A stretch of 35,086 nucleotides of DNA from Prolixibacteraceae bacterium (GTDB taxonomy: Bacteria > Bacteroidota > Bacteroidia > Bacteroidales > Prolixibacteraceae), in contig JAENXA010000003.1 in NCBI GenBank assembly GCA_016649735.1, positions 1 to 35,086 of the forward strand. The letters run 5' to 3'. The position numbers and the translations under genes were made by a program. Below are positions 5,523 to 8,336 of this stretch, one piece after another (position 1 is the first letter of the stretch; each line of letters opens with the position of its first letter). Below the pieces are notes generated by a model. It worked only from the letters and a program-made list of their open reading frames with translations, ran no database searches and was not told the origin of the DNA.

Positions 5523-6932
5523 TTATTCCATCTTATTGGCATTTTCAAGTGCCTCTTTTAAGGCTGCAAGTTTATTGTTTACTTCCTGTAATTCATTTTC
5601 CTCAACAGAAGCAGCAACTATTCCTGCACCGGCCTGATAATAAAGTGTTCCCCCTTTACTAAGGAATGAACGAATCATTATAGCATGATTTAGCGTATCA
5701 TTGAATCCGATAAAACCGATTGTCCCTGCATAAAACCCCCTGCACTGGTTCTCATATTGATCAATTAATTGCATGGCTCTAAGTTTTGGTGCTCCTGAAA
5801 GTGTACCGGCAGGAAAACAATCTCCCAATACTTTCATCATATTATAATTATCGGGTAACTTACCGGAAACTTCAGATACAAGATGAAGAACATGTGAGAA
5901 ATACTGAACTCCCATAAAATCGTCTACACGTACACCTTCTGCATTGCGACTGACATCATTTCTTGCCAAATCAACAAGCATAGTATGCTCAGCTTTTTCT
6001 TTAGGATCCTTGCATAATTTACGGGCAAGTTCCCTGTCTTTCTCATCATCTCCTGTACGGCGGAATGTTCCGGCTATTGGATTGCTTATAACTCTGCCTT
6101 TCTGAATACGGACTGTTGATTCGGGACTTGATCCGAAAAGTCGATAATCTCCGTAATCAAAATAAAACAAATATGGTGAAGGATTTACTGAACGAAGAGC
6201 ACGATATACATTGAACTCGTCTCCTTTAAATTTCTGTGAAAACTGACGGGAAAGTACTACCTGAAAAACATCTCCGCGAAAACAATGCTGTTTCCCTTTT
6301 TTTACCATATATAAATAATCCTCATCTGTCATATTCGATTTTTCTTCACCTTCTGTCTTAAAATTTGTTTTCTGAAATGTAAGATTATTAAGAAGTGATT
6401 CTATTTTCTCCATCTCAGAATTCTCTTCATCAGGAAGATTTTCAATAAGTGTAATCAGATCTCTTGTATGATCAATCGCTATAACATATTTATATAAACA
6501 ATAGCAGACTTCAGGAATATCATATTCTTCTTTCTTTTCTGACTTAATATCCAGTTTCTCAAAATATTTAATACTGTCGTAACTAAGATATCCAAATAAT
6601 CCGTTGGCTGCGGTTTTATTATTATCTCCTGAAAGTTTAAATGAATGATAAAAATCATTTAAAATATTTGCCAGTTCATGATGTCCTTCGATTTCAACTT
6701 CACTGTTTTTGTTCCCCGGCTGATTAAGAATTACTTTTCCTTCACTTACTTTTAAGCAATACATAGGTTTTAGACAAATATAAGAGCAGGCATTCTCTTT
6801 TCCATGATAATCGGAACTTTCAAGAAGAATTGATTTCTTATAAATATTCCTGAATTTTAAATAGACGCTTACAGGAGTGAGTACATCTGCAAGAATAGTT
6901 TTTGTTGTAACTTTTATTTTAACGGGTTTCAT
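5523..6932 (-). CDS. trpE: Anthranilate synthase component I
   Basis: TrpE makes anthranilate from chorismate using ammonia from TrpG and is the committed, feedback-inhibited step. The chorismate-binding domain fills the C-terminal two thirds: GSSPE, NPIAGTFRRTG, HTMLVDLARND, FPAGTLSGAPK and FYAGTIGF are all present. The N-terminal LLES motif (residues 36-39) matches the tryptophan-binding site of feedback-sensitive TrpE proteins, so allosteric inhibition is likely retained. PabB is the main alternative, but LLES and the trp context favour TrpE. It is the first structural gene after the leader attenuator. Confidence 0.96.
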   Translation of the reverse strand: MKPVKIKVTTKTILADVLTPVSVYLKFRNIYKKSILLESSDYHGKENACSYICLKPMYCLKVSEGKVILNQPGNKNSEVEIEGHHELANILNDFYHSFKLSGDNNKTAANGLFGYLSYDSIKYFEKLDIKSEKKEEYDIPEVCYCLYKYVIAIDHTRDLITLIENLPDEENSEMEKIESLLNNLTFQKTNFKTEGEEKSNMTDEDYLYMVKKGKQHCFRGDVFQVVLSRQFSQKFKGDEFNVYRALRSVNPSPYLFYFDYGDYRLFGSSPESTVRIQKGRVISNPIAGTFRRTGDDEKDRELARKLCKDPKEKAEHTMLVDLARNDVSRNAEGVRVDDFMGVQYFSHVLHLVSEVSGKLPDNYNMMKVLGDCFPAGTLSGAPKLRAMQLIDQYENQCRGFYAGTIGFIGFNDTLNHAIMIRSFLSKGGTLYYQAGAGIVAASVEENELQEVNNKLAALKEALENANKME

Positions 6933-6964: not shown

Positions 6965-6998
6965 AAAGCGGCTTACCGTGTTAACGATAAGCCGCTTT
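6965..6998 (-). terminator. Attenuator terminator of the trp operon
   Basis: An 11-bp perfect stem, AAAGCGGCTTA (6965-6975) against TAAGCCGCTTT (6988-6998), extends through CGT/ACG after one mismatch to a GTTA loop. On the minus strand it is followed by the U-rich TCTGTTATT. It lies 33 bases upstream of the trpE ATG and 30 bases downstream of the leader peptide stop, the expected place for an attenuator. Confidence 0.85.
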
Positions 6999-7028
6999 GT
7001 TAATATTTTAAACAATAGGATACGACAG

Positions 7029-7166
7029 CTACATCTTCTCACGGATTAGTAAAAAGTTTAGTTGCCACCACCATATGTTAAGTAATATATTCATATTATC
7101 TTTTAATATTTTAAAAAACCAATATGGCTTTCCTTCTTTTGAAGGATCCCACCACGAATTGGCCAT
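7029..7166 (-). CDS. trpL: trp operon leader peptide
   Basis: This is a 45-codon reading frame that begins MANSWWDPSKEGKPYWFF and ends with a UAG stop. It contains six tryptophans: two adjacent codons at 7149-7154, one at 7119-7121 and three in a row at 7065-7073. Such enrichment for the rarest amino acid, directly between a promoter and a terminator hairpin in front of trpE, is the signature of ribosome-mediated attenuation. The frame could extend further upstream to 7223, but that would run into the predicted promoter, so the ATG at 7166 is preferred. Weinberg and co-workers described a Bacteroid-trp RNA motif upstream of trp genes in this phylum; this leader may be a member, which I could not test. 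Confidence 0.85.
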   Translation of the reverse strand: MANSWWDPSKEGKPYWFFKILKDNMNILLNIWWWQLNFLLIREKM

Positions 7167-7193
7167 ATTGTATCTTTTTTGTTTTATTATTAC

Positions 7194-7225
7194 AAATGAA
7201 AAAAAAATAATCTTAATAACCAAAA
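7194..7225 (-). promoter_or_regulatory. Main trp operon promoter
   Basis: On the minus strand TTTTG (7225-7221), a 19-base spacer and TTCATTTG (7201-7194) match the Bacteroidetes promoter TTTG-N19-21-TAnnTTTG with one mismatch in the -7 box. The start would be near 7187, about 20 bases before the leader peptide ATG. It lies just past the stop codon of the upstream PHP gene. Confidence 0.6.
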
Positions 7226-7238
7226 ATAATCTTAAATT

Positions 7239-8336
7239 TTATTCATTTGGTATTCCCAGATCAACAGATAATTCTTTCCCTTTCATTGTAAGAATATTTT
7301 TTACTATATAGAATAATTTCAGTACAGGAACCTGATTAAGTTCACCAGAAAGACCGTAAAGCTCAACAGCTGTAGTAGAATGCGGTTTCAGAACAATGTC
7401 TTCGGGACACGAAAAACCTACAGAAGGCTGACGTCTGTGAAGATAAAAAGGTATATCGCTTTTATTATTAATACGTATTTGCTTTACTCCCTGATCTTCA
7501 AGTATTATATTATTATTTACAATTTCTATTGAATTTTTAAAAACAGGAACAATAAATTTTTCATTTCCAATTAATGTATCTCCAAAATATATGGCTGTAC
7601 GTTGTTTTAGTAATGCTTCTTTAACCGCAGATTCACTTCTTCCGGTAGCAAAAACTAAAGTAATGGGGCGATGTCCTTCAGGAAATTCAAGACCAGATGG
7701 GCCCTTTATATCAGAACCTGCAAGAATAGTAAGATTCTTTTCATTAGCCATATTCCCGGCTACAGGGAAATAACGGTCATGTTTATAAACTTCCACTCCT
7801 TTAAGTATGCTATTGTCCAGTAATCGAATCTGTTCCGGAAACCAGGATGAAGATGTTTGTTCTGCGGAATTACTCAGAAAAAGAAATGCTCCTTGATCCT
7901 TTACTTCTTCACAAAATTCACCCCAGTTTTCCCTTCTCAAAAGATTTGCATTCTTAATAAACAAAAGTAACAAATGACCTGGAGGCATCTGTCTATATAA
8001 TTCTGCTCCTCTGATAAGAATTATACCTGTTTGTTCTGCAAGTGGTCTGGCTATTTCATAAGATCGGTTATTATCTTCATTTACGTCCTTATTATGAGGA
8101 TGATATCCGATAGGATCAGTAATAGCTATAACATCAAGTCCTTCCCGCCAGGCTTCCTGAACCCTTACAGTAGGCCATACTTCCCCATCTGAAAATATAC
8201 TGTGCATCTGAAAATCACACTTCAATGTCTGATATCCGGGTATATTTGGAATGTTTATCTCTTTTCTTGTTTGTGCTGACAATGAAAAAACATTAAAAAG
8301 AACTAAAACTGATAAAACGATCTTTAAGTTTGTCAT
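7239..8336 (-). CDS. Secreted PHP-domain protein, Sb-PDE-like, probably catalytically inactive
   Basis: The 365-residue product starts with a signal peptide (residues 1-21, ending FSLSAQ) and should be exported to the periplasm. The body follows the Sb-PDE-type PHP phosphodiesterase pattern common in Bacteroidetes: NIPGYQTLKCDF, SDGEVWPTVRV, EAWREGLD, GAELYRQMPPGH. Several residues expected to bind metal are replaced: Gln43 in DFQMHS (usually HxH), Pro75 after TD (usually His), SNSAE near 155-159 (usually NHP) and Lys211 in SDIK (usually His). His45, Asp50, Glu112 and His121 remain. It lies 76 bases after znuB; TATTTTTG at 8394-8387 is an exact -7 match but lacks a well-placed -33 box. The substrate is unknown. 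Confidence 0.75.
   Translation of the reverse strand: MTNLKIVLSVLVLFNVFSLSAQTRKEINIPNIPGYQTLKCDFQMHSIFSDGEVWPTVRVQEAWREGLDVIAITDPIGYHPHNKDVNEDNNRSYEIARPLAEQTGIILIRGAELYRQMPPGHLLLLFIKNANLLRRENWGEFCEEVKDQGAFLFLSNSAEQTSSSWFPEQIRLLDNSILKGVEVYKHDRYFPVAGNMANEKNLTILAGSDIKGPSGLEFPEGHRPITLVFATGRSESAVKEALLKQRTAIYFGDTLIGNEKFIVPVFKNSIEIVNNNIILEDQGVKQIRINNKSDIPFYLHRRQPSVGFSCPEDIVLKPHSTTAVELYGLSGELNQVPVLKLFYIVKNILTMKGKELSVDLGIPNE

Follow-up and report, generated by a model that had tools for sequence, protein, structure and literature searches.

The window, a stretch of 35,086 nucleotides from one incomplete MAG of the Prolixibacteraceae, carries on its minus strand a trp operon, trpE-G-D-C-F-B-A (6932-121), all seven proteins of which were identified by their Pfam families. 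These are the regulated genes: trpE starts at 6932, downstream of a leader that, taken whole, folds with a z-score of -6.3 relative to shuffled sequences. The switch before the trp genes is a real tryptophan attenuator, of ordinary type. The gene upstream of the leader (7239-8336, minus strand) encodes a protein of 365 amino acids for which no Pfam family was found at E 1e-10. The genome is small (1.85 Mb, 96% complete, compared to 2.2 to 8.2 Mb for the listed family members) and the branch of its TrpE is long (0.92), so that it may have evolved fast or undergone reduction. Two modules make up the leader, designated here 'attenuator B', next to trpE, and 'element A', upstream of it; all coordinates below refer to the minus strand.

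Attenuator B begins with a short, conserved leader ORF containing clustered Trp codons (7094-7029). Its 21-residue peptide, MNILLNIWWWQLNFLLIREKM, aligns with the short WWW leaders that precede trpE in the family and in the phylum. Three consecutive Trp codons (7073-7065) constitute the expected stall site; the segment TGGTGGTGGC is invariant in the clade of 'type II' loci defined below, and is kept across the phylum. Directly after these codons comes strand 1 (CTTTTTAC, 7056-7049), an anti-antiterminator that pairs over 8 bp with strand 2 (GTGAGAAG, 7042-7035), at the end of the leader. This 1:2 hairpin, which the initial annotation had overlooked together with the second attenuator module upstream, completes the classical attenuation logic. 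An intrinsic terminator (6998-6965) lies between leader B and trpE. It had been described with a stem of 11 bp, but is stronger than that: the stem has 15 continuous pairs (6998-6984 with 6979-6965) around a loop of four nucleotides, TAAC, for a folding energy of -22.8 kcal/mol (z = -8.0). Its U-tract, TTTTCTG, is interrupted and overlaps the end of the stem.

To place these elements in a comparative context, trpE leaders were gathered from the window's family, Maribellus and Prolixibacter included, and from Bacteroidota at large, yielding about 110 leaders. In nearly all of them a terminator comes after a short ORF for a WWW (or WW) peptide, and both the Trp codons and the terminator are conserved before trpE. 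The comparison establishes pairings as well as anatomy. Among 35 distinct family sequences, the 14 terminator pairs tested were kept in 100% of cells, and five of them showed compensated changes; the 1:2 hairpin was paired in 98.6% of cells, with changes on one side only. Near the top of the terminator (columns 79 and 91 of alignment A2), a U-G wobble is kept in 29 of the 35 sequences, and in 25 sequences its G pairs with a C of the leader strand. It is as if terminator B were tuned to lose the wobble pair to the antiterminator.

The initial annotation had proposed that CCGTG (7044-7040), in the last codons of the leader, pairs with CACGG (6980-6976), in the loop and upper 3' arm of the terminator. 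Both motifs are present there, the first being overlapped by strand 2, and comparison across the phylum supports the contact well. Our approach consisted in measuring, in 57 groups of leaders, the complementarity of each leader to its own terminator and to the terminators of the others. Cognate complementarity was 18.6, compared to 14.0 for swapped combinations (P = 3e-10, this and the other swap-test P values being indicative, because shared ancestry leaves the groups less than fully independent), and duplex energies agreed. Split by place, the test gave its strongest signal for the loop and 3' arm (P = 1.4e-7) and a weaker one for the 5' arm (P = 0.003); the spacer gave none. The contact extends from about 17 nt after the last Trp codon to about the stop codon, a position that fits the requirement for masking by a ribosome. 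The phylum-wide comparison thus recovered an antiterminator contact that excludes the terminator and lies where the ribosome can reach it. At one pair of CCGTG with CACGG, four family sequences have U-A in place of C-G. The window's own 5 bp are not significant by themselves: 27 of 56 swapped combinations were as good, which places them among the weakest. For the window, the contact is a prediction that rests on homology.

In the trp attenuator of E. coli, it is the 5' arm of the terminator that the antiterminator captures. Attenuator B resembles that system in its short leader with Trp codons, its 1:2 hairpin, its alternative antiterminator and terminator structures and the decisive role of ribosome position; it differs in that its signal is strongest for the loop and 3' arm, not the 5' arm. 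Folding energies favour the terminator over the contact by far, and with the loop and 3' arm as targets the lower stem might form all the same, as a pseudoknot.

A tie to Bacteroid-trp RNA had also been raised. This motif (Rfam RF01692) is listed in Weinberg et al. 2010 (PMC2864571). No Rfam family passed its cut-off in the window, and 20 other loci searched with Rfam likewise gave nothing over a cut-off. A permissive search returned a full-length alignment of the window to RF01692, with WWW and GGCTT in register, scoring 28.4 bits compared to a gathering score of 49. In two genomes of the same family (G021 and G024), RF01692 passed its cut-off directly before trpE, and other members grade below it. 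The accepted members in the phylum show the same anatomy, with a WWW leader and a contact, for example TCGTGA with TCACGA. Because of these two observations, B would function in the manner of Bacteroid-trp and is very probably the same regulator; the tie stands by position and anatomy, but not by the formal score. Common to both are the location before trp genes, the WWW leader, the GGCTT at the start of the terminator and, in accepted members, the contact of the leader with the loop and 3' arm, whereas the Rfam model has no upstream element A. As the model ends at the 5' arm of the terminator, it comprises neither terminator nor contact. It misses most members in the window's family, and the present comparison supplies the missing terminator contact. 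Matches to the GibS, trpB-motif and microRNA families of Rfam fell far below their cut-offs and were taken as chance.

Ribosome-mediated trp attenuation is therefore the predicted mode of action of the window's leader, well supported by the cross-phylum comparison, in which the WWW codons, the terminator and the contact proposed by the initial annotation are all conserved. As a whole, that annotation was confirmed in part in its observation and supported in part in its interpretation. We infer that stalling, termination and the response to tryptophan would proceed as follows, with the segment 7094-6961 acting as a transcription attenuator of the trp operon. On a leader free of ribosomes, the 1:2 hairpin (7056-7049 with 7042-7035) and the terminator would both form. 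With ample charged tRNA-Trp, a ribosome would reach the stop codon (7031-7029) and cover CCGTG, letting the terminator form. When Trp is short, a ribosome stalled on WWW would cover strand 1 and free CCGTG, which would then seize CACGG, in the loop and upper 3' arm of the terminator, and RNA polymerase would thereby continue into trpE.

Upstream of attenuator B, most family genomes carry a further module, A. It consists of an ATG with a W-rich stretch 7 to 10 codons after it (as a rule NTIWLPWWGLL or SIWLWWGNTFL), a hairpin formed by CAATATGGC...GCCATATTG, and a terminator of its own; in Maribellus (L031), for example, the latter reads GGCCTGCTC CTAAAA GAGCAGG, then T. A U-run follows hairpin A in nearly all loci. 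A model of the hairpin, R1, built from 29 rows including that of the window, matched 101 of 140 family genomes. One of these matches (in G021) was marginal and away from trpE, which leaves 100 genomes, from 15 of 23 genera. For tandem leaders in the family this count is a minimum, since R1 misses a variant of A, found upstream of trpE at three loci (L026, L027 and L030), that has a W-S-W-W leader and a terminator beginning GCCTGCTTCTTAC and is devoid of the CAATATGGC/GCCATATTG stem. Element A is present in one copy per genome, apart from an antisense echo in G030, and precedes trpE wherever its surroundings were read. Among 295 genomes sampled from the order, R1 matched none outside the window's family. 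At the tandem loci (16 groups), the end of leader A was more complementary to the 5' arm and loop of its own terminator than to swapped ones (P = 0.008), and the same swap test gave no signal for the 3' arm. We conclude that attenuators A and B use different topologies, A resembling E. coli in its use of the 5' arm plus loop. Judging by their Trp codons, both attenuators would sense tryptophan.

In the window, the hairpin CAATATGGC...GCCATATTG is likewise found before attenuator B, as element A (7171-7109). It matches R1 with 55 bits (E 7e-8), its own row being among the 29 used to build the model, and folds with -19.4 kcal/mol (z = -3.2). Stem P1 has 9 bp (7170-7162 with 7128-7120), P2 has 6 bp (7146-7141 with 7136-7131), and a U-tract follows (7118-7113). 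No in-frame start codon for the WLPWWG reading is present in the window, nor is a terminator between A and B. Start and terminator of A go together at the family loci compared: the 54 loci that have an in-frame ATG for leader A all have terminator A as well, and the 17 that have no start all lack it. These startless loci were named 'type II'. All 17, the window included, have kept the hairpin, in at least two lineages, and where this was measured it ends 44 to 50 nt before the TGG codons of B. On the TrpE tree, type II requires at least three changes, of which two independent cases are safe. The third (L177, with leader L111, in G073) may reflect an exchange of trpE, because its leader resembles those of the main type II clade and of its own genus while its TrpE groups elsewhere. 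The tree does not prove the direction of change, but the same start and terminator are less likely to have been gained repeatedly than to have been lost.

The best explanation, in which we place considerable confidence, is that B is a ribosome-mediated trp attenuator of the Bacteroid-trp type, and that A descended from a second attenuator, kept in tandem by relatives. Element A would derive from a Trp-codon attenuator that was complete, having a leader peptide and a terminator of its own; in the window's lineage, start codon and terminator would have been lost, leaving the hairpin alone.

Whether that hairpin still has a role in type II loci is a separate question. One reading is that type II element A, the window's included, is a working untranslated RNA, either a pause site or weak terminator or a factor-binding element, and independent of any leader. 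In the main type II clade, which comprises 12 startless genomes, 29 nt (5' strand and loop) and 16 nt (3' strand) are invariant; trpE, compared in 11 of these genomes, has a single invariant site among 84 fourfold sites and no invariant run of more than 8 nt. This contrast argues for a working RNA, as do the retention of the hairpin at every type II locus and the nearly constant U-run, and such invariance is hard to explain for a relic. We nevertheless consider this reading rather doubtful: the RNA is putative, its internal loop varies on the 3' side, the invariant loop is changed in the window, and the other type II clade retains the stem and TGGTGGGG, not the whole sequence. It is with similar reserve, as a tentative suggestion, that we propose that in two or three separate lineages a leader-peptide attenuator shed its start codon and terminator while its hairpin was kept as a ribosome-independent regulatory RNA, acting on the trp operon alongside a second attenuator that works. 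For the window, a decaying relic without function is a serious possibility, if still short of probable, given the missing leader start and terminator, the divergence of this copy in the loop, the small genome and the long TrpE branch. Here, however, the internal loop is changed but P1 is intact and P2 has been re-paired with different bases, and in related type II genomes A is invariant though neighbouring synonymous sites are saturated.

P1 varies so little that it shows next to no covariation; the register of P2 shifts among sequences, which blurs a column-wise count of its pairs. Two other natures of the element were discarded: a DNA operator, since the spacing of the arms varies, so that A was judged to be an RNA hairpin; and an aptamer, since the internal loop is variable on its 3' side. 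A long-range pairing of GGCTTCCGTG in element A with CACGGTAAGCC in terminator B (10 bp, one bulge) is probably a coincidence, since in L016 and L021 part of it has gone with no compensating change, and it is absent from L147 and L148, which belong to the other type II clade.

The Bacteroidota promoter consensus is TTTG...TAnnTTTG. A predicted promoter of this type fits at 7224-7193, by pattern match, with a -33 box TTTG (7224-7221), a spacer of 20 nt and a -7 box TTCATTTG (7200-7193). Such boxes occur upstream of element A at 35% of 71 family loci, compared to 4% in shuffled sequences. The promoter match of the initial annotation did not hold: its TACAAT is the 5' strand of the transcribed hairpin A, and lies within the leader A ORF in tandem relatives. 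A sigma-70 promoter at 7195-7167, inside hairpin A, was discarded, such matches being at chance level (4 found, 3.4 expected).

The annotation had also taken as leader peptide a 45-codon ORF, which does run from ATG 7166, inside P1 of element A, into the frame of leader B and on to TAG 7029, with six Trp codons in clusters of 2, 1 and 3, and WWW at 7073-7065. The conserved leader, however, is formed by the inner 21 codons (7094-7029). The start of the ORF, MANSWWDPSKEGKPYWFF, had been read as a conserved motif but is encoded by no relative collected; the 'MANSWWDPSKEGK...' stretch overlies the remnant of the upstream attenuator. The ORF exists because a 2-nt difference brings the AUG in P1, the WW codons and leader B into one frame. 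That it is a real leader, starting at AUG 7166, with WW (7154-7149) as a second sensor whose stalled ribosome would hold hairpin A open, is in our view unlikely. The frame is open through both Trp clusters and the predicted transcription start lies about 20 nt upstream, but none of the relatives conserves a peptide in this reading frame, where the stop varies after MASVVG, and conserved translation from the AUG inside element A was discarded on the same grounds. The AUG of 7166 lies, moreover, within the 9-bp stem, and it is the inner AUG, at 7094, that is conserved. An indel at L148 (G011) also brings WW into the AUG frame, giving MAWWGALIKRVI. This indel differs from that of the window (7166-7149) and belongs to a separate type II lineage, and both frame WW with the AUG in the stem; re-use of this AUG, to which the common frame effect might point, appears improbable. 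Three further loci (L004, L009 and L010) are also fused to leader B, without Trp codons in the A part, so that fusion can arise by chance. Under the favoured explanation, a remnant hairpin followed by attenuator B, the two would have been joined by frame probably by accident.

Tandem attenuators are known from the mgtCBR operon of Salmonella (PMC3641672). That operon is unrelated, and in the window the upstream trp attenuator is reduced; a further difference is that both trp leaders, being Trp-rich, would read the same amino acid. Our literature search, with subscription journals mostly outside it, retrieved no earlier description of tandem trp attenuators. As far as the literature searched shows, the tandem arrangement and the untranslated, nearly invariant hairpin are new, B itself being ordinary. 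One bacterial family thus has two Trp-codon attenuators stacked in series in front of a single operon, and their antiterminator topologies differ. With the natural series that it offers (tandem, A-like only, B only, and hairpin plus B), one can ask what is gained by attenuating in two stages, and what happens to an attenuator after loss of translation. At one locus (L128, G001:C13:219431-220171), where no WWW attenuator B was found before trpE, an A-like leader (MNQLITVWFWWLSCFPGKK) is followed by a terminator of the GCCTGCTT type and then by trpE. Modules A and B seem to have been lost independently.
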